This document shows, in pieces, positions 6,787 to 54,021 of a DNA stretch of 64,000 nt. The position numbers and the translations under genes are program-made. Positions within the stretch are counted from its first letter, which is position 1. The number at the start of each line of letters is the position of its first letter. The DNA is from Verrucomicrobiota bacterium (GTDB lineage: Bacteria > Verrucomicrobiota > Verrucomicrobiia > Opitutales > Oceanipulchritudinaceae): the NCBI GenBank assembly GCA_021208135.1, contig JAJOKB010000069.1, forward strand, positions 1 to 64,000, in the 5' to 3' direction. Under the pieces are notes generated by a model. It did no database searches. It had not been told where the DNA came from and saw only the letters and a list, made by a program, of their open reading frames with translations.

Positions 6787-6792
6787 TACTTC

Positions 6793-20843: not shown

Positions 20844-22415
20844 CTAGGAATGTGCTTGATAGGAAATCCGGGTAAAGTCAGCAGTTGATCGGCTAACCTG
20901 CCCATTGCCAGACGCGAAAGGACCCATTGTGACACCTGTCCAACCCGTGGACAATTCAGTTGATAAAAATCGAATGGGACAGCGGTCCAGGACGGTGAGA
21001 GCCTGTTCTGATTGTCCGGCGGAAAAGGTATAGTGCGTCCAGTTACCAGACACCTGAAAATGGCAAACATCGCCATTAAAGGGAATGCGGGCCATGGTCT
21101 GGTACATATCGAGCACACGACGCCGCACCCGCAGAAACACACCGGTGCTTTCACGGCAAATGGATAGTGTGAGAAAACAATCATCACTCTGGCGCAAGGC
21201 GATACCTGCCTCCTCTCCATAATTTGCTGGATTGAAACGCACAGTTGCCGAGAAAGTAAAATCAGGATCTGTCTGACGCCTGCACACATAGACCGGACAA
21301 TGAGCACCATCGAGGTGGGTGGCATTTCCGCGCAAGCGCAAACCACCGTCTGGCAAACGCTCACACTCTGACTGACTCAAAGGAGCCCTTAAGGTTGACC
21401 ACTGTGGGGCCAATCCGTCCTGACAAAAAACCGTATCATCGTCAGCAGTGTCCCAGGGTGCGGACGGAAGCGCAGGCCCTGTCATGGACAATTCAATAGG
21501 TCTGCCGGAATTGATCACGGGCCAACCATCGATCCAATCGACGGGAGCGAGAAAGGTTTCGCGTCCCATGACATGAAAATTATACCCATAACGCGGATCA
21601 TGCCGTGTGCCTAGAAATACGATCCACCAAGAGCCATCCTGAAGTTCAATCAAATCACCATGTCCAGTGTAGCGAATGGCATGCGGCACCTTGTGCCTGT
21701 GTGTCAAAATAGGATTGCCAGGGCAGGATTCAAAAGGTCCCCATGGGGACTGACTGCGCCCGATGGTTATCATATGTCCATAACCAGTTCCGCCTTCAGC
21801 ACAGAGCAAATAATACCAACCATTGATCTTGTACAAGTGAGGACCTTCGGCATCACTTGAGGAAAAAGCATCTGCAATCAGGCGCAAAGGTGTTAAAAGT
21901 TTACCAGTGGCGAGGTCGAGCTCAGCCTGTGCGATTTTGCTATGAAAGCGCCTGGTGTAATAAACCCTGCCATCGTCATCAAACAATAAAGATGGGTCAA
22001 AACAACCGGTATCGATCAAAGTAGGCTCTGACCAAGGACCCGCAGGATCGGTCGCCGTGACCAAAAAATTGCCACATCCACCGACATCGGTGGTGACCAA
22101 ATAAAACAGCCCCTTGTGATAACGTAACGTTGGGGCGAAAACGCCGAGTGAACCAGGCCGACCGGTCAAATTCAGTTGACTCGTGCGGGTTAGCGCATGG
22201 CCGATGGGACGCCAATGTACCAGATCGCGGCTGTGATACAAAGGGACACCGGGAAAATATTCAAACGAGCTGACGGCAAGATAAAAGTCGTCTCCTACCC
22301 TGCATATGGAAGGGTCCGGATTAAAACCCTTGATCACCGGGTTGGTGAAGGACACTGGTTTGCTGGACTGAATATCCAAAGTTCCGTTGCGCAACTCGTC
22401 TAATGCTATGGCCAT
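20844..22415 (-). CDS. Glycoside hydrolase family 43 (beta-xylosidase / alpha-arabinofuranosidase-like), no signal peptide
   Basis: FTNPVIKGFNPDPSICRVGDDFYLAVSSFEYFPGVPLYHSRDLVHWRPIGHALTR ... GVFAPTLRYHKGLFYLVTT ... DPSLLFDDDGRVYYT ... SDAEGPHLYKINGWYYLLCAEGGTGYGH. Confidence 0.92.
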   Translation of the reverse strand: MAIALDELRNGTLDIQSSKPVSFTNPVIKGFNPDPSICRVGDDFYLAVSSFEYFPGVPLYHSRDLVHWRPIGHALTRTSQLNLTGRPGSLGVFAPTLRYHKGLFYLVTTDVGGCGNFLVTATDPAGPWSEPTLIDTGCFDPSLLFDDDGRVYYTRRFHSKIAQAELDLATGKLLTPLRLIADAFSSSDAEGPHLYKINGWYYLLCAEGGTGYGHMITIGRSQSPWGPFESCPGNPILTHRHKVPHAIRYTGHGDLIELQDGSWWIVFLGTRHDPRYGYNFHVMGRETFLAPVDWIDGWPVINSGRPIELSMTGPALPSAPWDTADDDTVFCQDGLAPQWSTLRAPLSQSECERLPDGGLRLRGNATHLDGAHCPVYVCRRQTDPDFTFSATVRFNPANYGEEAGIALRQSDDCFLTLSICRESTGVFLRVRRRVLDMYQTMARIPFNGDVCHFQVSGNWTHYTFSAGQSEQALTVLDRCPIRFLSTELSTGWTGVTMGPFASGNGQVSRSTADFTRISYQAHS

Positions 22416-24519: not shown

Positions 24520-27067
24520 TTAAAAGCTTGAGCGCAGCGTGAGGAAAAACATGCGCGGATCCTGTGGCATACCACCGGGATGAAAATACTGACGATTAGT
24601 AATGTTGCGCACATTCAACTGGAGAGAATGCCGGTAGCGTCCGGTGGTGAATGCGTAACTGACCATTGCGTCCCATAAAATCTGCGATCCCAGAAGAATT
24701 TCGCGTTCGACGGCGTCGTTTGCGCCAACGAAGCTGCTGGCTGCCGGATTTTCAGTGCGCAGGGCGTAAGCACCATAACGCTCACCGGACCAGTTGAAGC
24801 CACCGCCGATGGCAAGACCTGAGAGCGTGCCTTCACTAAAAGTATATTTGCTCCACACTCCGACCTGGTGATCGGGAACTGAAAGCGAAGGAATGGACAC
24901 GGGAATGTTGTTGCCCTGGCGGATGTCAGCAACGGTCTGATTGAGAATTTCTTCAGAATCGAGATAGGTGTATGTCAGCACAATCTGCCAGGATTCAAGC
25001 GGACGCAAAAACAGTTCAGTCTCAAAACCCTTGATCAAACGACCATTGTTCTGATTACCAATCAATGCGGTCTGTTGATTTCCGCTGGCATCAATAGCAC
25101 CGGGAACGGCAAATGAGAAGGACTTGGGCACGCCCACTAACTCAGTACGGAACACCGAAAATGCACCGGAAATGCGATCATTGAACAAGTCGAATTTTGC
25201 ACCGACTTCAATGCCCTCGCCACTCATTGGCCTGAGGGGTTCCTGCTCGGTAAAAACCCGCTCACCCGGTGGGCGCAACAACTCCTGCTGCAGGGCATCC
25301 CCAGACTTAAGCACACCAACGAAACCATTTTGTGGCAAAAACGATTCACTGTAGCTGGCGTAAATATTGATGTCTTCGGTGATGCGGAAAGAGGAGCCCA
25401 CTTGAATGGTGGTGTCTCTGCTAGTATTGACCGGCAGATTTGGCCTTTCAACTCGCTGCGATTCCTCTTCGTCATAACGAATGCCCGCGAGCACAATCAA
25501 GCGATCGTCAAAGAAGCGACTTAGATTGGAGATGAAGGCTGCCTTGTTGGTACGGTTTTGAAAATTTTGCGGTTCCAATGGGCGATTCAAATCGGCCACC
25601 ACTTCATTGGCGACAATGAATGCACTGCCAGTTAGAGGATTGAAGGGATCGTTGCGTACACGATCGGCAACCTCAGGATTGAGGATGTTGCTGCCACCTC
25701 CAGTGGCGACAGACCCACGAAAGCGGTTGCGCAAATATTCACCGGAGATAAATGTCTGATTTTCGATACCAGCGACTTCCCATTTGCCAGTAATCTCCAA
25801 TTGATTGGAAAATCATAGTTGAAACGTTTCCAATGATTCCAGGAATACTGCCGAACGGTCGCCAGAAATACCCAATGCCCAAGCATCGCCCCCAAACGGA
25901 GCGGCGCACTATATTGTGGTGAACACCATAAAAGCGGGCTGCCCAAGTATCTGATAACTGCTGACGCAATTCAAAGGAAACGGTGTGTTGATCGACATCA
26001 TTAAAGGCGTTCACCGGTACAAAGTTATTGCGCCGACCCCAGAAATCGGCGTAGCCATCCCAGAACCGGTTGCCACCGCTGGTAGCGGAATAGAAGTTAT
26101 AGGATAAACCAGTACCTGGATCCACCAAGGTAAGTGGAGGATTCAATGAGTACAAATCATTGGGATCCTGACCAGCGAGTACGCGAACACCCAAATTATC
26201 CACAGGACGATCGAAACCTGCTACCAAGTTGTTAAAAATCTCACGCCAGCGAGTGTTGTATTCAGGCATCGGCGTTGAATTGAAGGAATTTTGATTCAGA
26301 TAATCCCACTGCACAGTAACAGTGGTTCTGGCAAACGGTTTGTACTGCAAAAGGCCTGACCAAAAAGAGCGCTCATCCTCGGTGTTGTCGCGCCAACCAC
26401 CATCTACTTTATACGAGGCATCAAAACGATAAAGCAGTTGGTTGCGACCATCACTGTCGCCCTTGATTAAAGGACCGGTATGATTCAATTGCACGCGATA
26501 ATGGTCATAACTGCCTGCGGTCAACTGGATGGAGGTACGGAATTGATCCAATGGGCGCAGAGTCAAATAATTGACGATACCGCCGGGCTCAACCTGGCCG
26601 TAAAGCAATGACATGGGACCCTTGACCACCTCCACGCGCTCCACATTGGTCATGTCCTGACTATATAGCTGATTGACGCCATTGCGTTTGGAGCGCAGGG
26701 TGCGCAGACCACGGATGTAGAAACCTCCGGTTTCTTCAGCGGTCTGGGAAGCGCCCTGGGTGATACCGGCAGTGAACCGCACTGAATCCTCCAAAGTCTG
26801 GGCATAGGTGTCTTCCAAAAACTCTCTGGTTAAAGAAGTGATGGTAAGAGGCACCTCGCGTACCACAGCATTGAACCTGGTCGCAGACAAGGTGTTACGG
26901 ACCTGATAGCCGCGCACCTCACCACCGACAACGGTGAAAGGATCCAAGGTTATGATATCATCATCCGATGCATTGGTTTGCGCCCAGCTAACCGGCAGCA
27001 GCGCCACGGAAAGCAAGCCCGGAAAGGCGTAACGAGACAGTTTGAATAATCTGTTTGTGTTGAGCAT
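24520..27067 (-). CDS. TonB-dependent receptor (frameshift near 25780-25810)
   Basis: Plug domain IITLDPFTVVGGEVRGYQVRNTLSATRFNAVVREVPLTITSLTREFLEDTYAQTLEDSVRFTAGITQ and GFYIRGLRTLRSKRNGVNQLYSQDMTNVERVEVVKGPMSLLYGQVEPGGIVNY; beta-barrel continues in ORF 24520..25800, ending in F. Confidence 0.9.
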
Positions 27068-27092
27068 ATTGCAGAGAGTTGGGGTTGGGAAA

Positions 27093-30000
27093 TTACCAGG
27101 GCTTGAACTGCATAGCAGCGACGTCCAGGAACCTGAGACGGCCTTCCGCCTCAATCAAATAAAGCCAGCTTTCGGTTTCGTGATGGTAAAACCAAGGATG
27201 GAAATTCAACTGTGTCCACAGCCAGCCGCCTTCTGGATGCCACATCCATGCACTGTACAGGCTATCCTGCGCTAGGTAGAAGAAGCGCTGTTGATCGGAC
27301 GACCACAGCCAACCTGTACCCAGGTCAAAAACGTAGCCAAATGCAGGGTGGAAGAACAAAGTGCCGCCTAAATCAGCGAAACTTTGCAGGAAATTCATAC
27401 CCGAGGTATCCCCATACACAGTCAATGTCGGTCTGAATGAGCGCGCGGTGGTCTGGTCCGGAGAATACCACTCAACGTAGTTGTTCTGACTATCATCATT
27501 GACCGGGCCGCGCAATTGCAGGCCCATATACTGTTCACCCGCATTGAGGCTGGTAATCAGCGCCGAGGTCAAATCAAACTCCACAGGCTGATTAATCGAC
27601 ATACTTTGCGCAGGGATGGTCTGTTGCGGTACAGTCGGATGCAAAAAGTCACCTACAGTAACGCGACCAAACAAATTCGCACGCACGTGATGAAGGGTCA
27701 CATCCGGCGCATTGATCAGCAGTCGCGGGGTGACTCGGAATCCAGCGGAAACAATCTGCGAGCCAGCGCCACGCAAGCGGTACAGGTCAATCTCAGAATG
27801 AATACGCACTTCAGTATCCTGACTTTGCCCAACAACAGCCTCATCACCGGTACGAAGCAATAATGCCTCAATCGCGGAATTGGCAGTACCATTGCGGGGC
27901 GCACGGTCATCCAATCGCCTGAAGGCACCGCGCAGAGGAATAATTTCCATGCGTTCGCCCAAGACCACACTGATCGGAAAAACATGGAAGGTTTCGTGGA
28001 AACCGTTCCGTACACGTACACCGAGTTCATAGTCACCTATCCGGCTAAAATGAACAGTAGTGCTTGCCGCAGCGGGATCGTCAAACGACACCTCCCCGGG
28101 TCCACTGACCCTTGACCAATGCGCCGAAGGTACACCGGGACCATTGGCGGCGATAACATCCGCCTGCAGAAACGCGCCCGCTGAAATGGCTGCCAGGGCA
28201 GGAGCACGGACCTGAACCTCTGGTGCAGAACTGGTCGCATCAGGTGCATAGCGGCTGGTGTAAAGCGGAACAGCACCCGCACCACGGGGACCAGCACGGC
28301 TTAAGGTGTCACGGTGTACCACGATCGGATCCGTAGTGGCCAATCTTCGACGCTCACCGTCACGCACTTCATCGCCAATAAAACGATGACGGAAATTCCA
28401 GTTGGGCGGTCCGTTGATTTCCACAGCGCGCTCCAAACCGGAAACTGTGATCTGCGCGTCGTGAACAACAAAAATAGACGTGTCAATCGGGTTCAATTCG
28501 AAGCCATCACTGACGTTCATAACGCCGCCAAAAATCTCAACCTTAGCCTGATCCAGGGCATATACCATTGGACCCTGCCGTTCGCCAAACTTGGCGCCAA
28601 AAATCCACATGGAACCACCGCTCATAACCAGCATCGGCAGTGCCATTTCCGGATTATACTGAAAGGCGTGAACTTCTTGATCGTGAATAATCCAGCCTGC
28701 GAGGTCTGGTCTAAACTGCTGTCCGCCCGGTACGTTGTGCACATTGGAAACAAACAGCCTGCCGGTGGATGGATCGTTGCGGTACACGCCCCCGGAAATC
28801 CAAAAAAATATCGCGCAGATAAAGGTCTGCGTTTGAGCGGTTATGTATAAAATAGTTACTGATGTTTTGCTGCCAGTTGCCCCATACCTGCTCAATGATC
28901 ACAGCAGGATGGTCACTAACGCCCAGTTCAAACACCGGACCGGGTGCGGACGTGAGGGGAAAGCCAAGTTGAATTTGGGCGTAATTACTGGCAATGCGCT
29001 TCACGGAAGGCCCGATACGCACTGTTTCACTGACCACAAACACGCCAGGCTTGAGAAATATAGTTTCCGCGCCGGAATTGAATGCTTCGCGCAGCATTTC
29101 GGTGTGGTCAGATACGCCGGCCGGTTCCAGCACCAACCATTCTTCAGGAGCAGTCCAAGGAATTACAGGAAATTCAACTTCATCCAAATACAGAAAGTCC
29201 TCCGGTGAATCTTCCCACACTTTATAAACAGGTCCGGTGCGAAAGCTACCGTTGGCATTCGTGGCTTCCACGCGAGTACCATTGTCATCAAACAAGTATT
29301 CATAACCGGTTTGTACCACATTGCGCAGATAGAAAAAGTCGCCGCGTCCGACGATAGCCGGACCATCAACCGCAACACCGTCAGGCGTGCTCAAATCGGC
29401 ATGAAAAATAACTACATTGCCATCGCGAAATACTCCTTGAAAAACCGGAACTGAATTGACGCTGGTCAGTCCATGAATGGTGACCGGTTTGCGATGAGCA
29501 CGGATACCGGCAACACGTTGGCCATAAATCTCTATATCGCGCAATACCCAAGAATACACCGAGGTGATGGTGTTGTCCATTTTAATACCTAGATCAAAAC
29601 CCTCAATAATGACGTTTTCAACCACACCAGGAGCGGAAATGGACGAGGACAAGTCCAGTCCCACTGCCCCTACTCCATCGGGATCGAGCGATCGAATAAT
29701 CACATTGCTCATGCGCGCCACGTTGTTGCCTTGAAAACGCACCCCAATCGCCCCCGGATTACCAGCGCCTATCTCAATGGTAAAATTCTCGAAGGTATTG
29801 AGGAACCCGTTATTGGTCCAATCGCCATCAAAGTAGCTGATCATCGGACGCGGTGCGGATGCATTCTGGAAGGCCGGGGTATTGTCAGGCACATACAACA
29901 CCACGCCGTCACGGCTCTGCCCTTGCATCATAATATACTGTCCACCCGGAGTGCGGGTCTCCAACACCACGGGTTGCTCGATGCGATAAGTACCGTTGGG

Positions 30001-30397: not shown

Positions 30398-31643
30398 ATG
30401 ACAGTAAACAAGCGCCCTGACATTCTGTTGATCAACACCCACGACAGTGGGCGTTATTTTGGCTGCTACGGCGTGGCCACGGTCAATAGTCCTCATTTGG
30501 ATAGTCTCGCGGCAACAGGAGTGTTGTTTGAGAACATGATTGCGGCGTCGCCGATATGCTCACCCAGTAGAGGTGCCATGGTGACGGGGCGTTGGCCGCA
30601 ACGCAATGGCTTGCTGGGATTAACGCATCATGGTTTCAGACTGAACAGCAATGAGCGGCATGCCGCGCAGATCTTTCGCGACAGTGGCTATGAAACGGTA
30701 TTGTTTCATTTCCAGCATGTGGCTGAAAAAGCACGAATGGCCTGGACTGGGATTCGACCGCTATTTGGCGCAATCGCGGGATGAGGAAGAACCGGTGTAT
30801 CCAAACATGGCCAGACCCGCTCAGGAAGTGGCGCTTGCATTTGGTCGTTTTCTTGAGGGGCGCACTACTGAGAAGCCGTATTTTGCCCAGATTAATTTCA
30901 ATGAAACACACACTCCGTTTGAATTTGGAGGAGTGACTGCCGATAGAGCCAAAGGCGTTACCGTGCCTGGGTGGATTGAGAAGGATGGCGAGGCGGAACA
31001 ACATTTCGCCCTGCTTCAAGGATCGGTTGCAGCGCTGGACCGGGGCATAGGTATCCTGCTGGAAGCGTTGGAAGCCAACGGGCGAGCCAACGATACCCTG
31101 ATTGTTTTTGCCACCGACCATGGATTGGAAGCAGTGCGCGACAAATGGTCCTGCTATGAATCCGGGTTGGGCATAGCAGCCATGCTGCGGTATCCTGCGG
31201 CAGGAGTGACTGGTGGCAGGCGCATCCGTGAACCTGTGTCCAATGTCGATCTATTGCCAACCATGCTGGGTCTGGCAGGAATTGACCTGCCGCCTGATCT
31301 GGATGGGCTGGATCTTACCACCGTGGTGCGCGGTCAACAGAGCGCAGATGCGGAACGCCCGATATTTGGCATTTATCATAACAGCGGCATTCGCAGTGTA
31401 CGTGTCGGCAATTGGAAACTGATTCGCAATTTCTCTGCTGAGCCTTATCGGGAGCTGGCACCGGCGACTCTGCTCAAGCGCAAACCCCTGCAGCCTCGTC
31501 CGCACGCGGAGTTGTACAACCTGTCCGAGGATCCCGACGAACTCACTAACCTGATTGGCAGCCACCCTGAGCAAGCGGCCCTCCTCGAGCGCCATTTGGC
31601 AGTTTGGATGCAACAGGTCAAGGATCCGGCTTACATCTGTTAG
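30398..31643 (+). CDS. Type I sulfatase (frameshift near 30720-30750)
   Basis: RPDILLINTHDSGRYFGCYGVATVNSPHLDSLAATGVLFENMIAASPICSPSRGAMVTGRWPQRNG contains the C-x-P-S-R formylglycine motif. The second half has IVFATDHGLEAVRDKWSCYESGLGIAAMLRYP. Confidence 0.9.
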
Positions 31644-31687: not shown

Positions 31688-33826
31688 TTACTCAGGACTT
31701 GTGATTGCCTGTATTCGCTTTCTTATACGTGCAACCCGCGAGTGGTAGTCTTCGACAGCGTGCCAGAAACCTGTGCGGATGCGTGCATGCGGAATGGGGG
31801 TCGTCAGATCAAAGCGCTGCCGGGTATCGGGAATTTGTGACATTTCCAGCAGGAAGCGACACAACAGGTCACGCCATTTGCAAGCGTGATGCATTTGTTG
31901 GCAAAACTTCTCGTACACATGCGCCCAACGTTCCAGATCCATTGCTCCGTGGAGCGAGCGCCATTGGTTCTTGAACTCGCACACAGCCTCTACTCCATGA
32001 TAGCAACTATCATACAACTGTTGCACCAAGGCTGTGCCATTGCTCGTCTTGAATGCCCATGAAAGATGGTGGAAATACAACAGGTACTCCGGAGGACATT
32101 TTAAGGGATCACTGAAAACCGCTTCCTGTCCGGAAGCATACAAGGCCAGATAACCACTGCCAGTGCTCCTGGTGCGATCGCGCCCAGCACCATCGAAGGT
32201 GATCCCGGCAGTATCTTTGTTGCTCCAGGGATCGGGATCAAAGTGATGTAAGGACTCATGCAGAAATCCTAACCCGAGGGGACACATATACTGCGAAACA
32301 GCCTGATACGAGGCCGTTAAAATGGAAGCTACCTTATCCTTGGCCGCTATCCCAAACATCAGGTGTGCATATTCATCAGCGATAGCTTCAACCCTGGTAT
32401 CGGGATTCCATGCCAGGCGACCATGGGCAAAAAAGTCCTGCGCCAGCCAGCAGGTGTCCAAACCAATTGCGCGCATCACAGGTACCCGCGACGGCGGTGA
32501 CGGCACCTGCACCGCAGGAGCGATCCGTACCTGCTACGATATCCGCGATGCGTTTGCAGGGAGCGCCAGGTACGGTTTCAAATTGCCAAACCCGCGCCAT
32601 GTAAGGGCCTTCCCAGGCCAAATGCAAATCATGGCCAGTGTACTCATGCGCCAAATCAAACTCAAGTGCCAGTCGGGTATTGGGCATATGAGCAAACAAG
32701 GCATGTGGCGGTTCCCACATCTGAAAATCAGTAGCTGAGCGCTTGATCTGCAGAATGACGTTTTTGGCAAACTGACCATCCAAATGCATGAACTCATAAC
32801 TGGCGTGGTTAGCCCGATCGCCGCAGCGCGCTCATGGGGCGTTCGCCTGGATATATCGCGTCCATAAACAAAGGCCCGCCAAAACAAAATGCCGCCATAA
32901 GGTGCCAATGCCGAAGCGAGGCAATTGGACCCCTCCACATGGCTGCGCCCATAATCACCTGGGCCCGGACGTCCTTCACTGTCTGCCTTGACGACAAATC
33001 CACCCAAAGTCGTCTAATCAACCGGTAGATGTGTTGCGCCTTTTGACGCCACCACAGTTGCACGCGTTCATCCAATGGATCCGCTGTAGGCAAATTGTCC
33101 AACTCGACGGGTGAGGCGAAATCAACAGACAACCACAGTCGGATTCCCCAGGGACGAAAAACGGCTGCAAGCGCAGACAATCCGGAGAGCATCGCGTCCG
33201 ACAGTACCTCAGCAGTCGCATTCACGTTGTTGATGCACAAACCATTGATGCCTACTGATGCCAGCAGCCTGGCATAATCGCGGTAGCGCGGGTTTGGGCG
33301 CGACAAATCGGTCCAATCAAAAATAGTTTTGCCACCTTTAACGCGTTCGATGCTGCCCATGACCGGATCTTCCACCGGATTATCCCAATGATTCAGCATT
33401 CGCAACTCTACCGAGGGTGAGGAAGCGATTTTCAAGCCCTCGATTGCCTGCCCTCGCTGGATAGCGGTCAAGGCTGCAAATGTACCGTACACTATACCGC
33501 TCAGCCCAGATGCACGAATGGTAAGTGCACCCGCTGATTCGCGCACAATATATGCCTCCGGCGGCAGGGTCGCATCCTGCTGAAAAACCAAACCAGCGAC
33601 ATCCCTTGCGACTGGACGCATGACTCCATTGCGGCTGTCGCCCAGAAATCCGGCCAGCGCACGCTGCCATTCGCTCAGTACAGGTTCAAGATTCGCCTCC
33701 TGCCATTCACTGTACCAATCCTGCAATCGCTTCAGGTGAGCTACCTGCGCGGGATCTTTCACTGAGCGATAACGCAGCCAGGCATCGTAACCACTCTCGT
33801 CTTCAGGGGCATGAAAAATTCATCAT
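31688..33826 (-). CDS. Alpha-glucuronidase, GH67, no signal peptide (several single-base indels)
   Basis: Family-typical blocks across frames: [203 protein letters not shown] (restored at A6 32429-32434). Confidence 0.9.
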
Positions 33827-33914
33827 TATAAGGCCAGTCATTGTGTTGTTCCCGGCAATTGGTAACAAACCCGGCGCAATGTTCCATGTAGCCACACAAC
33901 ACCATGGCGTGAAA

Positions 33915-35461
33915 TCACAGTGGCTCTAAGGCTAAGCAGTCACTAAAAAGATTGGCAAATTCGGGTTCCGAATTGAGTTCTATGCACTGCACGCGGGAAA
34001 GCCACTGTTGGATCGGAAGCGTTAAGTTGTATTGCAGAGCGATCGAGGCACCGGCGAGAGCGGCGTTGCCGGGTATCCTGATGCGCTGCAATGGCAGGTT
34101 GGGCAGCAATCCAATATAGGCTGCGTGGCTTGGATTCAAGTAGTAGCCAAAACCGCCTGCAATGAGCAGTTGTTCGATATCGGAAACATTTAACCTGGCC
34201 CTACGCAAAAGCATGGCAATACCTGAGCCGATTGCTGCCTTTGCCTGTAACAACTCTGCTATATCAGCTTCTGAAACAAAATGGTTTTCATCGACAAACA
34301 ATGCAGCCAATCCATTGACCATACGACCGGATTTGCACCACAAGGGGTGTTGGCGATTGAATCGACCTAATGCGGACAGCAGTTCGCACTGGGAGGTTAA
34401 AGCCAGGAAATCGACATAAGCGGAACCGGTGATACCGACAAAATCGCGCGCCGCGCAAGCACCCTGCCTGTGGCAATGCCAACCAAGGGATGCATTTAAG
34501 TCCAGCGAAGAGATGGCACCTGGGCGAGCGGTTGTGCCGCAACTCAGACGCCCGCCTTCAAAGGCTGGACCCGCAGCAGTGGCGGTAGCCAGAACTGCAT
34601 TTGGACTACTGAGCACCATTTCGCCATTAGTTCCGAAGTCGATCAACAAAGTGACGCGGTGTTCATCAAGCAGACCGGTGGCAACTGCGCCAGCGGTCAC
34701 ATCGGCACCGACAAAAGCTCCGGCGGCAGGCAAAAGAAAGGTTTCGCACTGCCAAGGCAATTGGGCGAACCCCGCTGGCAACACGCGTCCATTGGCAAAA
34801 CCGGAGCAAAGGGAAACCGGCTGAAACCAGCCAGAGAGTCACCGGTCAGACCATGAAGCATAGTTGGATTGCCGACCACACAAGCAGCCAAAATAGGTTG
34901 ATGCGCAGACAAAGCAGCAGCCAGGTTGCGGAACAACGGCACTAACCCCTCGGCTACCAGGCAGTGTTGCAACTGGCGCCCACCGTCAGCCTTATCAACA
35001 GCAAAACTGATTCGGCTGAGGACATCGTCGCCAAAACGGCGCTGCGGATTGCCTAAACTGGCCACTGCCAAACAAGCGCCTGACATCAAATCCCAAATAC
35101 CAGCCGCCAGAGTTGTGGTCCCGATATCGATCGCCAATCCAAGTCCTGAGCGCTTCAGGCGTTCAATGCCATTGGGCGTTACCACATCGAATGCACACAA
35201 CGCGTGCACATTGTTATCGGCCAGTGATTTCCCGGGAATGGTGATTGTTGTCTGCGCAAACTGCTTGGCCGGCACTTGGCATGATTTAACCACTCCATGA
35301 CCCAAAGATGTTACCTCGCAACCCAAGCATAAACCTCTGCCACCGCAGCGGGTTTTCAGCTGAATACCCGCTTGAAACAGACAATCGCTCAAAGGAATGT
35401 CGGGGTCATCGACCGCCAACACGCGCTGACTGCCATCGGGCATTTGGATAGTTAAATTCAT
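33915..35461 (-). CDS. RACE/RamA-like corrinoid activation protein ([2Fe-2S] ferredoxin + ASKHA domain, DUF4445), frameshift near 34700-34780
   Basis: N-terminal CGGRGLCLGC (C-x5-C-x2-C); ASKHA motifs LGLAIDIGTTTLAAGIWDLMSG, VVGNPTMLHGLTG, LLIDFGTNGEMVL, LLIAGGFGYYLNPSHAAYIGLLP. Confidence 0.88.
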
Positions 35462-36165
35462 TGCATCGACAACTGACTGCAGGCCGCGACTATGCTTTCA
35501 CCGGGAGCAACGATCTGGAATTTATCCGATGACCAGGGACCCCTGACCAATGCCTGTAACCAGGACGCATCGCCAGTGTGTTGCGTCATTTGCCAACCCA
35601 TGAACCCTGCACAATTTTCACAATAACAGCGCGCACGGCGATCATTGGTTAAGTCAACATAGGCAGCGCAATTGTGATGTGAAAAAACAGAGACGTCTGC
35701 CGCAATCAAATCATCAACCAGGTCAGGATCATCCGGGTACCGCTCCGTGTAGAATGACTTCAACCAGTGTTCGCGATCAGGTCCTGGTACTCTGCGATTG
35801 CGAATCCAGCCCGGACTGTAGAAGTAGGTTGCTGGATTGGCTTTAAGGATAGCCTCGTGGCGCTCGGCACTGCCAAGAAGGATCGAAATACAATCATGAG
35901 CCTTGGGGATGACGAGGGATTTACTGCGCGCCTGTACTCCCACCAGACCATTGCCACACATCCCATAGGCCAAGGCAATGTGATCAAACCTGCCGTCAGC
36001 ATCCAGGGTGTCGACAATCGCTTGAACGGACGTGCGCAGCTTATCCGGATAGTCGTGCAACCCCATTTGCAAAAACACCAAATCCCTCCACGGGGGATCG
36101 ACAAACAAGCCGCTCAACTCATCGGCAAAAACATCACAGGCAATCAGCGCATAACCAGCATTCAT
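35458..36165 (-). CDS. DUF1638 domain protein
   Basis: IALAYGMCGNGLVGVQARSKSLVIPKAHDCISILLGSAERHEAIL and YFYSPGWI are DUF1638 hallmarks. 4-bp overlap with the following activator gene. Confidence 0.85.
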   Translation of the reverse strand: MNAGYALIACDVFADELSGLFVDPPWRDLVFLQMGLHDYPDKLRTSVQAIVDTLDADGRFDHIALAYGMCGNGLVGVQARSKSLVIPKAHDCISILLGSAERHEAILKANPATYFYSPGWIRNRRVPGPDREHWLKSFYTERYPDDPDLVDDLIAADVSVFSHHNCAAYVDLTNDRRARCYCENCAGFMGWQMTQHTGDASWLQALVRGPWSSDKFQIVAPGESIVAACSQLSMQ

Positions 36166-37082
36166 GTGGGTAACCTGAAAGTCCTTCCAGGCATGGCTGC
36201 GATCACCTCATTCAACAGACTCTCATCCTTGTCATGAACAATCAGAACCAACCCAGTCGGTTTGTTTTCGTCATCCGGCTGGACGTCCAGACTGTCCAGG
36301 GTTTTTTGCACCTTAAACGTTCCTTGTGGGGTGTCTATCCACCCTTTGGCGCGCACAACGGCAGCAGGCAGACTCTGCAACCAGTTCCGGGCCTGAATAA
36401 CAGACAGCATTGATGACCACTGCACTGTAACAGAAGTGAATGGGTTGGCATCACAAGTAGCCAAAGGCATTGCGGGCAAAGTGCGCTTGATTTCGTCCAA
36501 AGAGAAAGGAAACTGACAAAATTGAGCACGGATAATTTCGGCTTTTTGGTTGATAGCGCGCAGGGTTGTTTCCGCTGCCTCCAGTTCCGCTTCTGTAACG
36601 GTGTCGACCTTGTTGAGAACAATTTGATCACAGACCTCAACCTGTTGGCGTGCCACCGGCAGATGCAGAATTAAGGATTGCATGCGATTGGCGGCGACCA
36701 CGGTGACAACGGACCGAATGCCAAACCAACGCTTGAGGCCATGTTGGTCCATCAACGTCCCAATAGCGGAGGGGTTGGCCATGCCACTGGTCTCAATGAT
36801 GACGCAATCCAACGGTTGTTCGGTGTGCAACTGGACCACAGTTTCCTGCATGGTGCGGACAAACTCACCGGCTTTGCAGTCGCAAAACAAACTGCCGCCA
36901 ACAACACTGTGTGTCGCCACACCGGTGCTGGCCAATTCCGGACCATCGACATCCAGATCCGCCAACTCGTTGATCAAAAAAACCAACCTGAGTTCTGGGC
37001 GCGAATGGGCCAAATTTCTAAGCAAGGTGGTTTTGCCACTGCCGAGAAAGCCTGTCACCAAAACTACCGGAATCAAGGACAT
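36162..37082 (-). CDS. CobW/P47K family metal-chaperone GTPase
   Basis: PVVLVTGFLGSGKTTLLRNLAH (Walker A), VVGGSLFCDCKAGEF (CxC variant of the CobW CxCC site), LDCVIIETSGMANPSAI, QIVLNKVDTV. Confidence 0.88.
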   Translation of the reverse strand: MSLIPVVLVTGFLGSGKTTLLRNLAHSRPELRLVFLINELADLDVDGPELASTGVATHSVVGGSLFCDCKAGEFVRTMQETVVQLHTEQPLDCVIIETSGMANPSAIGTLMDQHGLKRWFGIRSVVTVVAANRMQSLILHLPVARQQVEVCDQIVLNKVDTVTEAELEAAETTLRAINQKAEIIRAQFCQFPFSLDEIKRTLPAMPLATCDANPFTSVTVQWSSMLSVIQARNWLQSLPAAVVRAKGWIDTPQGTFKVQKTLDSLDVQPDDENKPTGLVLIVHDKDESLLNEVIAAMPGRTFRLPT

Positions 37083-37086
37083 GGCA

Positions 37087-38454
37087 TTATTTGCGGTCCG
37101 CGGCACAGCGCAGAGCGGCGATAAGGTCTTTGCGGTCGGGAATGATGGAAGCGAAGGCCTCGCGACCATCCACACAGATACTCGGAATGGCAGTTACCTG
37201 CAATTTTTTCATATACCCCAAACCATCGCGCCCGGTGATTTTATGCTCCCTGACCTCAGCTGCTCCTCCATAAGCTGATGCAGCTTCTTGCGCCGCCTTG
37301 ACCGTGTAAGCGCATGGAGCGCAACCAGCGGAATCCAGCGTAACAACATCCACAATCACTGCCAATTCAGCCGAATAATCGGGAATCTCAATGTCAGCAA
37401 AATCGTCACTATCGACTTTGGCAGGCAGATTGCGCGCCACTTGTAATTGATAGGGATCCCTGACCAAGGAGGCGACAGCCTGCAGATTTTCAGGCTTTAC
37501 CGCAAATGGCAGATCGCAACCGGGTGCGAGCACGAAACCGGGCGAGGACCCGGCCTGATCCAGACATCGAACGGCATCTCTGCGCGCATCGTTTTCGTCA
37601 CCCAGCAATAACACAACCGTCAGTTGCAGATTGCCGCCAAAAGATTTTCCGGCAGCAGCGGCGATCCGCGCCAAGGCGGCCATATCGACGTTTTCGTCCA
37701 CTGAAATATTGTCACAACGGGTGGCAGCCATGGCCTCCAAATTGCGTGTCGCATTGCCACACACAAACAGGGACGACAGTGCTCCCCTGGCCCGTACATG
37801 ATCAAAAATGCGATTGTTAGGTGGCGCTACGTATGTGCTGAAATGCCCCGGACCGATTTGGCTGATCATAGGATCGACCACTGCAATCACATCCACACCT
37901 GCGTCCAAATAAGCGTCTGCCATCTGACAAGCGATACCAGCACAGTAATCTAATAATTCAGGAACAGAGTCCTCATCATCAAACATATCGAGCAGCACTT
38001 CATCGCCACGCAAATGCAAAGCCAGAGTCAAAGGTCCAGTCAACAGACCATAGAGTGCAACTGCGTCGCCCATCTCGGTTTTAAGACGACGCACGGCCTC
38101 AAGCACCAAAGGAATCCGCCCCTTCTCCGTGCTGAATGCAGGTAGCTGTGACAAATCACAACCTGATTGCAATGGGTGACTGGAGACGGAGGGTGGCGTT
38201 TCTCTTGCCCAGGCTAACTGGCATCCGAGAACCTCGGCTTCCAGTTGCAAGTCAAACACAACAGGCAATCCATCCGGCTGGTAAAGGTCTCTTGCTTGCT
38301 TGAGTGCGCTGACTATAGCATCAGCGGATTGCAAATATGCAGTGGCATCCAAACCAATCAGTGAGCCACCATGCACCCCGACAAAAGGCACCCAAGGTGC
38401 TCTTGGAGTCTTGCTTCCACGCAGTGCTGCCATTAAAATTTCCTTGCCTGTCAT
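37087..38454 (-). CDS. MtaA/MtbA-like UroD-family methyltransferase with C-terminal thioredoxin-like domain
   Basis: UroD/MtaA segments ALYGLLTGPLTLALHLRGDEVLLDM, ISQIGPGHFSTYVAPPNNRIFDHVR, LFVCGNATRNLEAMA, GFVLAPGCDLPFAVKPENLQAV; then VTLDSAGCAPCAYTVKAAQEAASAY...LGYMKKLQVTAIPSICVDG (CxxC plus cis-Pro context). Confidence 0.85.
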   Translation of the reverse strand: MTGKEILMAALRGSKTPRAPWVPFVGVHGGSLIGLDATAYLQSADAIVSALKQARDLYQPDGLPVVFDLQLEAEVLGCQLAWARETPPSVSSHPLQSGCDLSQLPAFSTEKGRIPLVLEAVRRLKTEMGDAVALYGLLTGPLTLALHLRGDEVLLDMFDDEDSVPELLDYCAGIACQMADAYLDAGVDVIAVVDPMISQIGPGHFSTYVAPPNNRIFDHVRARGALSSLFVCGNATRNLEAMAATRCDNISVDENVDMAALARIAAAAGKSFGGNLQLTVVLLLGDENDARRDAVRCLDQAGSSPGFVLAPGCDLPFAVKPENLQAVASLVRDPYQLQVARNLPAKVDSDDFADIEIPDYSAELAVIVDVVTLDSAGCAPCAYTVKAAQEAASAYGGAAEVREHKITGRDGLGYMKKLQVTAIPSICVDGREAFASIIPDRKDLIAALRCAADRK

Positions 38455-38486
38455 ATTATTTGCCTCCGTTGAATTCGTGAACTGCT

Positions 38487-39731
38487 TCAATCATGGCCAC
38501 CACATTTTTTGATCGGCGTCAGCGCTTGCACATTGTGGATGGCATTGAACACAAAACCGCCACCTGAGCCAAACACTTCACAGCGTTGCAGCACCTCAGC
38601 GCGGACTTGTTCAGGGGTACCAAAGGGCAAGGTCTCTTGGGTGTTTACGCCTCCGCCCCAAAAGGTAATTCTATCACCGTATTTAGCCTTCAAACCATTG
38701 GGGTCCATGCCAGCAGCGGAACATTGAACCGGATTCAGGATATCAAACCCTGCATCCACAAAAGTATCTATCAATGGTTCAATGGCTCCGCAGGAATGCT
38801 TGAAGGTGCGCCAATGCGTATTGCGATGAATCCAGTCGTTTATTCTCTGATAGCGGGGCAACCAAATCTCCCGCACCGTTGGCACACCGCAAAACAATGA
38901 TGCCTGGGTGCCAAAGTCCGTTCCACAGACAACCACCACGTCAATGACATCCCCTGCAATGTCGTACAGCCGCTGCATGTTACGCACTGCGATGTCAGTT
39001 TGCCGGTCAAACAACTCCATGACAAAATCAGGCTCGCTGGCGACGGTCATGTACCAGTCTGCTACACCACGCACTCCTTTGGGATGTGTTAAAAAGGGCG
39101 CAGGCACCAAGGCGATGTCACCCAGACAGGTACCGTTCAAATGGACGCTGATCGCGCGGTCACATTGGCGAAATTGTGCAGCCTGTTGCCGCCAATAGTC
39201 AGCCTCTTCCTCGTTCATGAGGGCAAACTCTTCTAAATTGTCTTCAAGGCTCAGGTGGTCTTCGTCAAAATTTGGATCTCTGCGCTCAATGGTGTCAAAA
39301 AAGTAGCCGGTTTTAGGCATGTGCCCGCTGGGTGGCGCGCTGCGATCACCTTTCGGGTGGATATAGGTATCCCCTTTGGCATCCGCTTTCGCATGAAAAT
39401 GTTCTGAAACCAGAACTTCCTGACCCCAGGGAGTTCGCCAGGGTTTCCAGTTTTCATTGGGAAAACCAAAAATGGTTCGCTGAGGAAAAATCGGCTGAAC
39501 ATCAATACCCAAAGCTTGTTGCAGATCTTCTTCGATCAAACCAAGCATCTGGTAGGGCTCACACACCTTGACCGGAGTATCTTCCAGACCATAATGCTGC
39601 CGCAAGCCAGCCACCACACTGCAATGCATGCCCGTGATGAATGAACTGCCAAAATCAATGGGAATGCGGTCCGGAGATTTCCGGTCAACCGCTGCTCGCA
39701 CCCTTTGTTTACTATTCATAATGGGCTCCAT
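38487..39731 (-). CDS. Uroporphyrinogen decarboxylase-family corrinoid methyltransferase (candidate substrate-side MT)
   Basis: MNSKQRVRAAVDRKSPDRIPIDFGSSFITGMHCSVVAGLRQHYGL ... FKHSCGAIEPLIDTFVDAGFDILNPVQCSAAGMDPNGLKAKYGDRITFWGGGVNTQETLPFGTPEQVRAEV. Start overlaps upstream stop (TAATG); start could be 39719. Confidence 0.85.
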   Translation of the reverse strand: MEPIMNSKQRVRAAVDRKSPDRIPIDFGSSFITGMHCSVVAGLRQHYGLEDTPVKVCEPYQMLGLIEEDLQQALGIDVQPIFPQRTIFGFPNENWKPWRTPWGQEVLVSEHFHAKADAKGDTYIHPKGDRSAPPSGHMPKTGYFFDTIERRDPNFDEDHLSLEDNLEEFALMNEEEADYWRQQAAQFRQCDRAISVHLNGTCLGDIALVPAPFLTHPKGVRGVADWYMTVASEPDFVMELFDRQTDIAVRNMQRLYDIAGDVIDVVVVCGTDFGTQASLFCGVPTVREIWLPRYQRINDWIHRNTHWRTFKHSCGAIEPLIDTFVDAGFDILNPVQCSAAGMDPNGLKAKYGDRITFWGGGVNTQETLPFGTPEQVRAEVLQRCEVFGSGGGFVFNAIHNVQALTPIKKCGGHD

Positions 39732-40369
39732 TAAGCGGCTGTTCGCGCAATTAACCTCTTGGCTTCATCCACAGCACTGGCGGCGTCGGGGGCATATCCG
39801 TCCGCTCCAATTTCTTGCGCAAATTGCTGTGTGATCGGGGCCCCACCGACCATCACTTTGACTGCCACCCCACTCTCTCTGATCAACTCGACCGTACGTC
39901 GCATGGCGGGCATAGTGGTGGTCAATAAGGCGGATAAGCCGATCACAGCAGCACGGTGTTCACGCAAGGCCGCAATAAAGGCATCAGGCGATACATTGGT
40001 GCCCAGATCCACCACCTTGAAATTGGCCGCTTTCACCATCATAGCCACCAGATTCTTGCCAATGTCGTGAAGGTCTCCTTCCACAGTGCCGATCACAACT
40101 GTGTGCTCTGGTTCACTGCCAACACTCAACAACACCGGTTCCAATAAATTCATACTGGTCTGCATGGCCCGCGCCGCCACCAAGACTTCCGGGACAAAGA
40201 TCTCGTTGGCTTTAAAGCGACGGCCAACGTCGTCCATGCCAGCGCTCAAAGCCGACATCACCTCCTCAGGTGCCACTCCCGCAGCCAGCAACTCCTCCGT
40301 TGCCAATTTAGCTTCTTTGCGCCTGCCGGCTTTTATCGCTTCACTCAACTCATTCAGTTTTGGTTCCAT
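39731..40369 (-). CDS. B12-binding corrinoid protein (MtaC/MtbC/MtgC type)
   Basis: Helical cap KEAKLATEELLAAGVAPEEVMSALSAGMDDVGRRFKANEIFVPEVLVAARAM and Rossmann domain with GTVEGDLHDIGKNLVAMM (D-x-H-x-x-G). ATG preceded by AGGAGATTT. Confidence 0.93.
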   Translation of the reverse strand: MEPKLNELSEAIKAGRRKEAKLATEELLAAGVAPEEVMSALSAGMDDVGRRFKANEIFVPEVLVAARAMQTSMNLLEPVLLSVGSEPEHTVVIGTVEGDLHDIGKNLVAMMVKAANFKVVDLGTNVSPDAFIAALREHRAAVIGLSALLTTTMPAMRRTVELIRESGVAVKVMVGGAPITQQFAQEIGADGYAPDAASAVDEAKRLIARTAA

Positions 40370-46158: not shown

Positions 46159-47545
46159 TCAGAACTCTGCGCTTCCTGGAGTGCGGGCGAAGGGAATGAC
46201 ATCCCGGATGTTGGCAATCCCGGTTACGAACATCAGCATGCGTTCAAAACCCAAGCCAAAGCCGGCGTGCGGAACTGAACCATAACGGCGTAAGTCGCGA
46301 TACCACCAGTAGTCTTCCTGATCCAACCCATGATGTTGCAAAGCGCTATCCAGGCGTTCGAGGCGTTCCTCGCGCTGGCTGCCACCCACGATTTCACCGA
46401 TACCAGGGACCAAAACATCCATCGCGGCCACCGTCTCACCGTCATCATTCTGCCGCATATAAAACGGCTTAATCGTTTTCGGGTAATTGTAAACGGTCAC
46501 GGGACACTTGAAGTGCTCCTCGGTCAGATAACGCTCGTGCTCGCTCTGCAGATTGGCCCCTGGTTCCACAGGAAACTGAAAGGTTTTGCCGGAGTTGCGC
46601 AAAAGTTCCACAGCCTCCTTGTAGGTTATTCTAACAAAAGGGCGTTCCAGAACGAAGCGCAGGCGCTCCAGTAATCCCTTGTCCACAAACTTGTTAAAAA
46701 AAGTCCAGATCCTCTGCACAATGAGTCAAGGCGTCTGCTATCAAATATTTCACGAATGCCTCGGCGGTGTCCATGTCGCCATGCAGATCGCAAAAGGCCA
46801 TTTCCGGTTCAATCATCCAAAACTCGCTGGCGTGGCGTGAGGTGTGTGAATTTTCTGCGCGAAAGGTAGGACCAAAGGTATAAACATTGGAATGGGAGCA
46901 TGCAAAAATCTCCGCTTCCAATTGACCACTGACAGTCAGAAACGCAGACTTACCGAAAAAATCTTTACTGTAATCGACCTCACCTTTGTCAGTCAGGGGT
47001 AGTTTGCGACCGTCCAAAGTAGTGACCCGGAACATCTCCCCTGCCCCTTCGCAATCACTGCTGGTGATAATGGGCGTGTGCACATACAAGAAACCCCGTT
47101 CCTGAAAGAAATTGTGAATCGCATAAGCCAGTCGGGATCTTACCCGGAAAGCAGCCCCAAACAGATTGCTCCTGGGTCGCAGATGCGCAATTTCGCGCAG
47201 GTATTCCAAGGTGTGTCGCTTCTTTTGCAGAGGATAAGTGTCGTCAGCAGCGCCGACCAATTGCAGCTTGGTTGCTTGTACTTCCCACTTCTGTTCAGTT
47301 CCCTGCGAAGGCACCATGCGCCCTTCGACGGCAACAGAACTTCCCGTTGTGAACGAATGAATATCGGCATATTCGGGACAGGACGCGTCGACTATCACCT
47401 GCATGTTACCAAAGCAGGAGCCATCATTCACCTCTATGAAGGAGAAAGACTTGGCATCGCGACGGGTGCGGATCCAGCCCTGAATCAAAATGGTTTCTAC
47501 CGGGTTTTCCAATGCCAGTGCCTGGCGAATCATGGTTCGTTGCAT
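46159..47545 (-). CDS. asnS: Asparagine--tRNA ligase (frameshift at 46696-46702)
   Basis: [111 protein letters not shown]. Removing one base of A7 gives [12 protein letters not shown]. Confidence 0.95.
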
Positions 47546-47609
47546 GCAATGACGGATATCCGGTCGGTGGCTGATTTCAAGCAAAACGGCAATTAGTCTG
47601 CCTAATTTA

Positions 47610-48386
47610 TCAGGCCTGCCAGCAATGCAATTGGCCTTGGTGAAAATGAGCGGCTGCCGCACTTTGGCAACCACCGCCCATCACAGCCAATGCCGATCTT
47701 TCAGCATCCACAGCGCGCTTGGTTTCCTGACACAAAACCGGCTCCAGCAACGGCAGCAACGCTTGTCTGCACTGCAGCGCGATGGCTCCTTGACCGGCAG
47801 CAGGAATGCAATCCTCCAGCGAAAACGGCAGCACACTCAAGCCCTCTGGTTGCGTCAACCCCAGGCGCTTGAGCCCTGCCATAGCCATAACGGTTGCATC
47901 AGCGACACCCGAACGAATTTTATCCATCCGGGTGCCGACATTGCCACGAATCTCAACCCAGTTGGCCTCAGGATACAAGCGGCGCAACTGTTCTCTGCGC
48001 CTCGGACTGCCAGTGGCAATGGTATTTGGCAGCGCGACCCCTGCGCGCACAACAAGCGCATCCCTGGCATCTTCCCTCGGCAGATAGCCAGCCAGGGATA
48101 AACCATCAGGCATTTCGGTCGGCAGATCTTTGGCTGAATGGACGGCCAGATCAGCCATCCCCTTGAGCATGGCCTCCTCCAATGCGGAGGTAAACAACCC
48201 TTTGCCGCCCTTCTCGGCCAGTGACCAATTCAAGCGTTCGTCGCCCACCGTTGACATAGGTAGAATCTCGGTCTGCAAGCCCGGAATACGCTCGCACAAC
48301 CAAGCTATGGCAAGCTCGGTCTGGGCCATAGCCAAAGGGGATTTGCGCGTCACAACACGCACAAGAGTCGAAGCAAATGAATTCAT
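47610..48386 (-). CDS. hemC: Porphobilinogen deaminase / hydroxymethylbilane synthase, apparently 3'-truncated
   Basis: VVTRKSPLAMAQTELA; GKGLFTSALEEAMLKGMADLAVHSAKDLPTEMPDGL; ATGSPRRREQLRRLYP; RGNVGTRMDKI; AVMGGGCQ. The ORF ends soon after the cofactor cysteine. Confidence 0.92.
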   Translation of the reverse strand: MNSFASTLVRVVTRKSPLAMAQTELAIAWLCERIPGLQTEILPMSTVGDERLNWSLAEKGGKGLFTSALEEAMLKGMADLAVHSAKDLPTEMPDGLSLAGYLPREDARDALVVRAGVALPNTIATGSPRRREQLRRLYPEANWVEIRGNVGTRMDKIRSGVADATVMAMAGLKRLGLTQPEGLSVLPFSLEDCIPAAGQGAIALQCRQALLPLLEPVLCQETKRAVDAERSALAVMGGGCQSAAAAHFHQGQLHCWQA

Positions 48387-52447: not shown

Positions 52448-54021
52448 ATGAGCTGGAGCCGATTTAAAGAACATTATCTTCACCTGAAGGATCTCAATCT
52501 GAGTCTGGATATCAGCCGGATGCAATTCCCGGAAGATTTCATGGCACACATGGAGCCCGCGATGCAGAAAGCCTATGAAGCCATGGCGGCTTTAGAGGGT
52601 GGCGCGATAGCCAATCCCGATGAAAACCGCATGGTTGGTCATTACTGGCTTAGGTCTCCGGCTTTGGCTCCAACCCCTGAGCTGCGTCAACAGATTGAAC
52701 AGGCTCTGGCTCAGGTTGAAGCAGTGACGCAAAAAATCCATCGCGGTGAGTGGAATGGGGACGGTCAGCCATTTAAACATTTGTTGGTGATTGGTATTGG
52801 CGGTTCCGCGCTTGGACCACAATTTGTCTCCGAAGCTCTGGGTAGACCCGGAGAAGACAGGATGAAAATCCACTTTTTTGACAATACCGATCCAGACGGT
52901 ATGGATAAAGTGCTCGCGCCATTGCGCAATGAATTGGATCGTACTCTGGCAGTAGTCATTTCGAAGAGCGGTGGCACACCTGAGACCAGAAACGGGATGC
53001 TGGAAGCTGCGCACGCATTCATGAGTGAGGGCATTGACTTTGCTGGCCAAGCCATCGCAATCACGGGAGCGGGCAGTCAGTTGGACCAGTTGGCAGAGCG
53101 TGAAAATTGGCTGGCCAGGTTACCTATGTTTGACTGGGTGGGAGGGCGCACCAGTGAGTTGGCTACGGTGGGTCTATTGCCTGCCGCACTTCAAGGTATT
53201 GATATTCGCGGCCTGCTCAAAGGTGCCGCATCAATGGACGCCCACACCCGCAATCGCACGACAGGTGCCAACCCGGCAGCATTGCTGGCCTTGATGTGGT
53301 ACTACGCCACCAATGGCAAGGGTGAAAAGGACATGGTCATCCTCCCCTACAAAGACAGGTTGAGCTTGTTTTCCAAGTATTTGCAGCAATTGATCATGGA
53401 GTCACTCGGCAAGGAACGTGACCTTGATGGCACTATTGTTCATCAGGGCATCGCGGTTTATGGCAACAAGGGATCTACCGACCAACATGCTTATGTACAA
53501 CAGTTGCGCGAGGGCGTGAACAATTTCTTCGCCACTTTTATTGAAGTCTTGCGCGACCGCGAAGGAGCGTCACTGGAGGTTGAACCAGGCATCACTTCGG
53601 GCGACTATCTGCAATCTTTCCTACTCGGCACTCGCAGTGCACTGGCTGAAAATGGCCGTGAGTCTATCAGCATCACCATCGACGAAGTGCGCCCGGAAAC
53701 GGTGGGAGCCTTGATCGCGCTGTACGAGCGTGCAGTCGGTTTGTACGCATCCCTTGTCAACATAAATGCCTATCATCAACCAGGCGTGGAGGCTGGTAAA
53801 AAAAGCAGCCGCGGTGTTTCTTGGTCAAAAAGACCCGTATTGTCGATTTTCTGCACACAGAACGCGGAACTTTCCACACTGTCGAAGACATCGGATCAGC
53901 GCTCTCAATCGATCCTGAGGTAGTCTTTAAACTGTTGCAGCACATCGTGCTGAATCCTGCCAAAGGAGTTATTTGCAAAACCGGAGCTTGTCCATTCAGT
54001 GGCACTTATGGAGTCCTTTAA
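52448..54021 (+). CDS. pgi: Glucose-6-phosphate isomerase (C-terminal frameshifts at 53798-53804 and ~53827)
   Basis: [72 protein letters not shown]. Removing one A in each of two A-runs gives [36 protein letters not shown]. Confidence 0.95.

Follow-up and report, generated by a model that had tools for sequence, protein, structure and literature searches.

An operon encoding a corrinoid protein and UroD-superfamily methyltransferases beside a GH67 gene in a Verrucomicrobiota genome: a candidate O2-independent demethylation system for methylated sugars

Sugar methyl ethers, such as the 4-O-methylglucuronate of hardwood xylan, methyl-fucose and algal methyl-galactose, stand in the way of ordinary sugar breakdown. 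In the literature searched, the characterised bacterial route for their removal is the O2-dependent P450 for 6-O-methyl-galactose (PMC10033563), and no corrinoid system for methyl sugars was found described in the open-access literature. The closest described corrinoid systems are those of MtvB, OdmB, VdmB and MtoB, together with the chloromethane methyltransferase CdmB; they combine a UroD-fold substrate methyltransferase (MT1), a separate MetH-like corrinoid protein and a RACo-type activator (PMC13222342). The same source lists many UroD-superfamily methyltransferase clades as unknown. Here we analyze a 64,000-nucleotide stretch of contig JAJOKB010000069.1 (the window), part of a 3.04-Mb metagenome-assembled genome (MAG, 74.5% complete) of a Verrucomicrobiota bacterium, in which six genes have this MT1, corrinoid protein and activator in common with those systems and precede a GH67 α-glucuronidase gene. 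With somewhat better than even confidence, we read the six genes as encoding the cobamide-dependent O-demethylation of a methylated sugar, for which the substrate, the role of zinc and the methyl acceptor are what we infer. The operon and the sugar-related neighborhoods of its relatives suggest a so far undescribed route by which sugar methyl groups are stripped and reused independently of O2.

Between 40369 and 31688 lie seven genes, all on the minus strand, which encode the corrinoid protein (CP), two UroD-superfamily proteins (MTA and MTB), CobW, DUF1638, RACo and GH67 (Table 1). The first six overlap or lie a few base pairs apart. The CP stop and MTA start share TAATG at 39731, MTA and MTB overlap at 38487-38490, the MTB stop at 37087 is followed a few bases on by the most likely CobW start at 37082, and CobW/DUF1638 and DUF1638/RACo overlap at 36162-36165 and 35458-35461, respectively. 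Pfam and the coordinates thus confirm the gene content, strand, order and tight joints described in an original prediction made from this DNA, and its spacing of about 90 bp between RACo and GH67 is measured as 91 bp from the RACo stop to the likely GH67 start (ATG at 33823). A terminator scan places no terminator in this gap, with the nearest minus-strand sites falling inside RACo and GH67. The order of the operon is beyond chance, because CP-MTA-MTB recurs in six loci of other genomes (L005, L006, L010, L011, L012 and L015; L and G numbers denote loci and genomes) and is continued by CobW-DUF1638-RACo in the first two.

CP matches PF02310 and PF02607, its DLHDIG sequence conforms to the DxHxxG pattern of MetH-like corrinoid proteins, and PDB entry 1y80 is its best structural match (E=1e-52). 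MTA belongs to the URO-D family in Pfam, and its AlphaFold model (predicted local distance difference test score of 90.9) superimposes best onto the Methanosarcina mazei methylcobalamin:coenzyme M methyltransferase (4ay8/4ay7) and UroD. A profile search of PDB sequences with MTA retrieves nothing at E<=0.001, which places the sequence far from any solved structure. Residues His312, Cys314, His399, Cys269 and Cys281 are invariant among 65 orthologs, and His312 and Cys314 align with the His/Cys zinc ligands of the M. mazei enzyme.

Linkage was counted over 80 MTA loci from one scan of genome contigs. Flanking open reading frames were clustered under a composition filter against antisense shadow frames. 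Of the 80 loci, 22 have a CP gene no more than 2 kb from MTA, and in 16 the distance is at most 200 bp. The linkage spans Verrucomicrobia, Acidobacteria, Acidimicrobiia, Rhodospirillales and Planctomycetota. On the MTA tree it was gained or lost at least 10 times, and since it arose repeatedly and independently it is strong evidence that MTA works with a CP. Twelve loci have a homocysteine methyltransferase gene no more than 2 kb from MTA. Genomes G002 and G009 carry MTA alone in a xylan locus and encode CP and RACo on another contig, as AraC-CP-MtaB-(DUF1638)-RACo; therefore, CP can act in trans. The RACo of the window contains both PF17651 and PF14574, as expected of this activator type, in a frame broken once in this assembly, and is collinear with the intact RACo of L155. 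DUF1638 is a recurrent partner of corrinoid systems and stands beside CP or RACo in seven loci (L002, L005, L006, L020, L024, L155 and L203). Taken together, the predicted function of the operon in corrinoid-dependent methyl transfer with RACo activation is strongly supported.

The original prediction regarded the operon as complete-looking. This description fits MT1, CP and RACo, but no MetH- or MtrH-like second methyltransferase (MT2) is encoded, and the MtaA-like MTB has no histidine zinc ligand and ends in a thioredoxin-like tail with a CxxC motif. Compared with the MtvB-type and CdmB systems, the operon is without a pterin-binding MT2 and has CobW, DUF1638 and the UroD-thioredoxin protein in addition. 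MTB scores E=3e-50 against TIGR01463, yet below the family cut-off, and aligns with 4ay7 (E=1e-25) over the whole UroD domain. Like the methylcobamide:coenzyme M methyltransferases MtaA and MtbA, it keeps both cysteine ligands, whereas the window protein and eight relatives have FxCG where those enzymes have the HxCG zinc motif (FxC...C in place of HxC...C in all nine sequences), and a CAPC thioredoxin-like domain is fused and retained. We propose MTB as MT2 or as a methyl/redox partner. This His-to-Phe replacement, together with the fused CAPC domain, makes a thiol methyl acceptor or a redox partner possible.

In L157, a relative of MTB comes after CP and a methanol enzyme of the MtaB type, and another adjoins CP-CobW-RACo without MTA in L221; these two arrangements suggest a shared role for MTB as downstream partner, with MTA as the substrate-specific subunit. 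The L157 order also bears on a second reading, in which the operon is a methanol system of the MtaABC kind, fed by methanol or by methanol derived from methyl esters. Relatives do join CP, an MTB-like protein, DUF1638 and RACo with MtaB, and MtaB genes (PF12176, E=5e-169) accompany AraC, CP and RACo in L155 and L156. In the window, however, MTA takes the place of MtaB in the MT1 position, PF12176 is absent from the operon and the scanned flanks, and MtaB and MTA are different families, the only loci with MtaB close to MTA being L008 and, at a distance of 4.7 kb, L016. We therefore consider a methanol system very improbable. In Verrucomicrobia, MtaB-type genes with an AraC regulator, CP and RACo occur at L155, L156 and L016.

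The genes that surround MTA in other genomes favor a sugar methyl ether. A sugar porter (SP) family transporter of the major facilitator superfamily abuts MTA in nine loci from several phyla, overlapping it or lying within 132 bp. Aldose-1-epimerase is the neighbor in L014 and L016, CE15 glucuronoyl esterase in L027 and L045, which belong to two distant phyla, and GH95 occurs near MTA in L045 and, 5 kb off, in L010. In L072 (1409-11209), MTA lies inside an operon with a PfkB kinase, class II aldolase, GH29, L-fucose isomerase (FucI) and a beta-helix protein. This operon suggests use of O-methyl-fucose. When domains near and far from distant MTA orthologs are counted, CP, homocysteine methyltransferase and the sugar porter are commoner near MTA. 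A more general claim that MTA marks sugar loci was tried on LacI and ABC sugar-binding proteins and rejected.

Two other substrate classes have to be weighed against these neighborhoods. Methoxylated aromatics, as lignin pieces accompanying glucuronoxylan, would be demethylated if MTA acted like MtvB, OdmB, VdmB and MtoB; aryl methyl ethers are the substrates of known UroD-superfamily O-demethylases (PMC13222342), and the glucuronoyl esterases near some MTA genes cleave lignin-carbohydrate esters. We nevertheless judge this improbable. MTA forms a remote clade found in sugar loci, its neighbors are porters, aldose epimerase, FucI and glycosidases, no aromatic-degradation gene lies near it in the flanks sampled, and its invariant H-x-C...H differs from CdmB, a relative of the aryl demethylases that binds no metal (PMC13222342). 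The porters open a different alternative, in which MTA would act on polyols, not on aldoses, among them methylated inositols such as pinitol and ononitol. SP-family porters carry inositol as well as sugars, and sugar-isomerase-like triosephosphate isomerase (TIM) barrel proteins and Gfo/Idh-like proteins occur near related UroD/P450 and corrinoid loci. The contexts with aldose-1-epimerase, GH95, FucI, GH43 and GH67, on the other hand, indicate aldoses or uronates, and inositols appear distinctly improbable.

For a methylated sugar in this genome, 4-O-methylglucuronate is the most likely donor, an assignment that we make tentatively and from gene context; MTA orthologs elsewhere probably serve other methyl sugars. 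The GH67 of the window contains the middle and C-terminal domains of the family (PF07488 and PF07477, both above cut-off), spread over several frames, and was aligned to the intact GH67 of L120. It forms a fully supported clade of its own with the proteins of G002, G009, G063 and G068, and all five genomes are MTA-positive. The intact members have no signal peptide, whereas GH67 of the relatives G003, G011, G019 and G029 begins with a signal-like sequence. This window-type GH67 occurs in 5 of 24 genomes with a close MTA and in none of 51 relatives without one (exact test p ~0.002, uncorrected for kinship; the genomes are not independent). Beyond GH67, the locus runs on as a xylan-type cluster that the original prediction missed, with a sulfatase, a pectate-lyase-like protein, a TonB receptor and a GH43 xylosidase. 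Known GH67 xylan loci likewise combine GH67, GH43 and a TonB receptor, with CE15 in relatives; here, in contrast, GH67 is of the cytoplasmic subtype, seen only in MTA genomes in this comparison, and placed behind a corrinoid operon. On one contig of G002 (L003/L120), a TonB receptor, two secreted proteins, GH43 and LacI lead up to MTA, followed by a pectate-lyase-like gene, CE15 and, ~15 kb from MTA, GH67. L004 (G009) shares the half from TonB receptor to MTA, and the GH67 of G009 adjoins CE15 on another contig. UxaC is present in the genome of the window, in frameshifted form.

Several observations weigh against a methyl-sugar demethylase and against 4-O-methylglucuronate in particular. GH67 stands directly beside the operon only in the window and never among the other genomes scanned, so that the co-localization expected from the original prediction is borne out for MTA in the xylan loci of L003/L120, with GH67 on the contig, and of L004, but not for an operon-adjacent GH67. 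Among 23 genomes with close MTA orthologs, 5 have GH67, as do about 4 of 42 with distant ones, and L002 (G004), the closest MTA with a CP operon, belongs to a genome with neither GH67 nor GH115. LacI and ABC sugar-binding proteins show no enrichment near MTA relative to positions 5.5 kb or more away. PF00809, the pterin-binding MT2 domain, is found neither in the operon nor in the 74.5%-complete genome; four relatives each have one copy, in a very long, MetH-size frame. Both RACo and GH67 carry frameshifts in the assembly, and the UroD neighbors of the P450 proteins described below are subfamilies other than MTA.

Such points leave room for a chance or generic clustering of GH67 beside an unrelated corrinoid operon whose MTA acts on a non-sugar methyl donor. 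Besides the isolated GH67 adjacency, CP-MTA-MTB lies beside housekeeping genes in L015 and beside a glycosyltransferase in L012. MTA is nevertheless found independently in the TonB receptor/GH43 locus of L003 and L004 and beside the nine sugar porters, and window-type GH67 was found only in MTA genomes; we regard mere coincidence as unlikely. GH67 as an obligate MTA partner was rejected, being absent from most MTA genomes, and GH115 as its substitute fares no better, being absent from all four MTA-carrying genomes of the family to which the window belongs. The MTA neighborhoods point to methylated sugars in general; because GH67 is missing from most MTA genomes, GH115 is no substitute and L002 has neither, they do not favor 4-O-methylglucuronate in particular. 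Of the 4-O-methylglucuronate demethylation system originally predicted, corrinoid methyl transfer with RACo has thus held up through the CP linkage, the context is best read as pointing to a sugar methyl ether, and the specific donor is supported only in part.

For a methyl-sugar demethylase, the following scheme can be envisaged. RACo would reduce the corrinoid of CP to Co(I), as is known for the RACo family, and MTA would bind the methyl ether and pass its methyl group to Co(I), giving methyl-Co(III). The predicted zinc site of MTA (His312, Cys314 and His399) could provide a Lewis acid for the ether oxygen, in the way that zinc acts on methanol in MtaB. The methyl group would then enter one-carbon metabolism via MTB, homocysteine methyltransferase or MetH. 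The adjacent GH67 would release 4-O-methylglucuronate in the cytoplasm, and the demethylated glucuronate could proceed into the UxaC pathway. If true, a cobamide route of this kind accounts for O2-free use of methylated glycans, feeds methyl groups into one-carbon metabolism, and supplies a substrate class for some of the UroD-superfamily methyltransferase clades listed as unknown (PMC13222342).

P450 genes provide a separate, independent tie to sugar demethylation. In L203 (G061), a corrinoid operon is divergent from AraC-ferredoxin-P450, after which come aldose-1-epimerase and an oxygenase fusion of 768 aa. The P450 has 6g5o as its best PDB match (E=5e-112; next match, 6e-42), and 6g5o/6g5q we take to be the Zobellia 6-O-methyl-D-galactose demethylase. 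A structure of the 6-O-methyl-D-galactose demethylase P450 has been solved (PMC10033563). The carbohydrate P450 systems of porphyran use likewise strip a methyl ether from a monosaccharide, but their route is oxidative, O2-dependent and yields formaldehyde (PMC10033563), whereas the corrinoid route would be O2-free and keep the methyl group. The 6g5o-family P450 is present in 12 of 24 close-MTA genomes as well as in G006 and G016; it was not found in the incomplete assembly of the window. In Verrucomicrobia, six loci (G061, G006, G069, G064 and, twice, G067) have a URO-D gene no more than 2 kb from the P450, against about 0.17 expected by an estimate from URO-D copy numbers. The order in G067 is GH95-UroD-P450. 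In G006, a run of CP, MTB (73% identical), CobW, RACo, UroD, ferredoxin, P450, a Na+/solute symporter and sulfatase indicates that a window-type operon adjoins a predicted sugar-demethylase-type P450. Separately, a 6g5o-family P450 (G071:C20, 12231-13340) lies ~5.4 kb from a GH115 α-glucuronidase domain (5786-6814), a pair that is possibly an oxidative 4-O-methylglucuronate route.

The oxygenase fusion (c10), a single 768-aa protein, consists of diiron FA_desaturase, Rieske ferredoxin and NqrF-like reductase domains and lies within 2 kb of MTA in five loci (L004, L009, L014, L016 and L023). Within the family of the window it occurs in all four MTA genomes and in 1 of 13 others (exact p 0.002, uncorrected for kinship). 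It may be an O2-dependent counterpart that acts on the same methyl ether as MTA. The fusion often adjoins MTA and aldose-1-epimerase, and is a candidate self-sufficient oxygenase demethylase. More broadly, we give about even weight to the view that in Planctomycetes-Verrucomicrobia-Chlamydiae (PVC) bacteria, including Verrucomicrobia, a family of corrinoid UroD methyltransferases serves as O2-independent methyl-sugar demethylases in polysaccharide loci, often paired in the genome with oxygenase demethylases (the sugar-type P450 or the diiron-Rieske-reductase fusion), the methyl group being recovered as a C1 unit in the absence of O2 and oxidized in its presence.

Table 1. Features of the window and of related loci in other genomes
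Feature	Position	Strand	Evidence and remarks
CP, corrinoid protein with MetH-like cap and B12-binding domains, DLHDIG motif	39731..40369	-	PF02310 E=8e-30, PF02607 E=3e-18
MTA, 414-aa UroD-superfamily methyltransferase, proposed substrate-specific MT1	38487..39731	-	PF01208 E=5e-9
MTB, 467-aa MtaA/CmuA-like UroD with C-terminal thioredoxin-like CAPC domain	37087..38490	-	URO-D and weak Thioredoxin_3
CobW/COG0523 GTPase, metallochaperone type	36162..37082	-	PF02492 E=1e-34
DUF1638 protein	35458..36165	-	PF07796 E=9e-36
RACo/AcsV-type reductive activator of CP	33915..35461	-	PF17651 E=7e-25, PF14574 E=3e-56, two frames
GH67 α-glucuronidase, cytoplasmic type	31688..33826	-	PF07488 E=2e-48, PF07477 E=1e-54; several frameshifts
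Sulfatase	30398..31643	+	PF00884 in two frames, one frameshift; convergent to GH67
TonB-dependent receptor	24520..27154	-	PF07715, PF00593; two frames; L003 copy 67-73% identical, syntenic
GH43 β-xylosidase	20844..22415	-	PF04616 E=1e-86, PF17851 E=4e-32; synteny with MTA in L003, L004
6g5o-family P450 beside UroD methyltransferases, Verrucomicrobia	L203:11912-13405, L221:8832-10300, L224:9553-11800		often with 2Fe-2S ferredoxin
Further 6g5o-family P450 loci beside UroD methyltransferases	L227:9313-11459, L228:958-3146, L230:2703-5161		
c10 oxygenase fusion	L004:11486-13792, L157:338-2635, L203:7461-9752, G000:C118:2910-5179		last entry from the genome of the window, frameshifted
Xylose-isomerase-like TIM-barrel protein	L227:8400-9296, L208:3583-4500, L206:11019-11954, L202:9967-10860, L157:2632-3603		

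The frameshifts, overlooked in the original prediction, number one in RACo (near 34800) and at least three in GH67. Because frameshifts also affect single-copy and other genes of this MAG (lysS, PGI, the TonB receptor and the sulfatase in the window, as well as UxaC and the c10 oxygenase gene), assembly errors are most likely, rather than pseudogenes or decay. The split housekeeping and receptor genes at 46159-47674, 52448-53923 and 24520-27154 of the window point to assembly indel errors.

Rfam and tRNA scans of the window gave no match. A sulfatase lies beside or a few kilobases from window-type GH67 in two genomes (30398-31643 of the window and L127:933-2168), hinting at a sulfated glucuronoxylan-like substrate. 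A conserved xylose-isomerase-like TIM-barrel protein of ~300 aa recurs behind the oxygenase fusion or the P450. In the window, an ISL3-family transposase (12257-13561) separates an efflux cluster of the CusA/HlyD type (2982-9780) from the polysaccharide locus.

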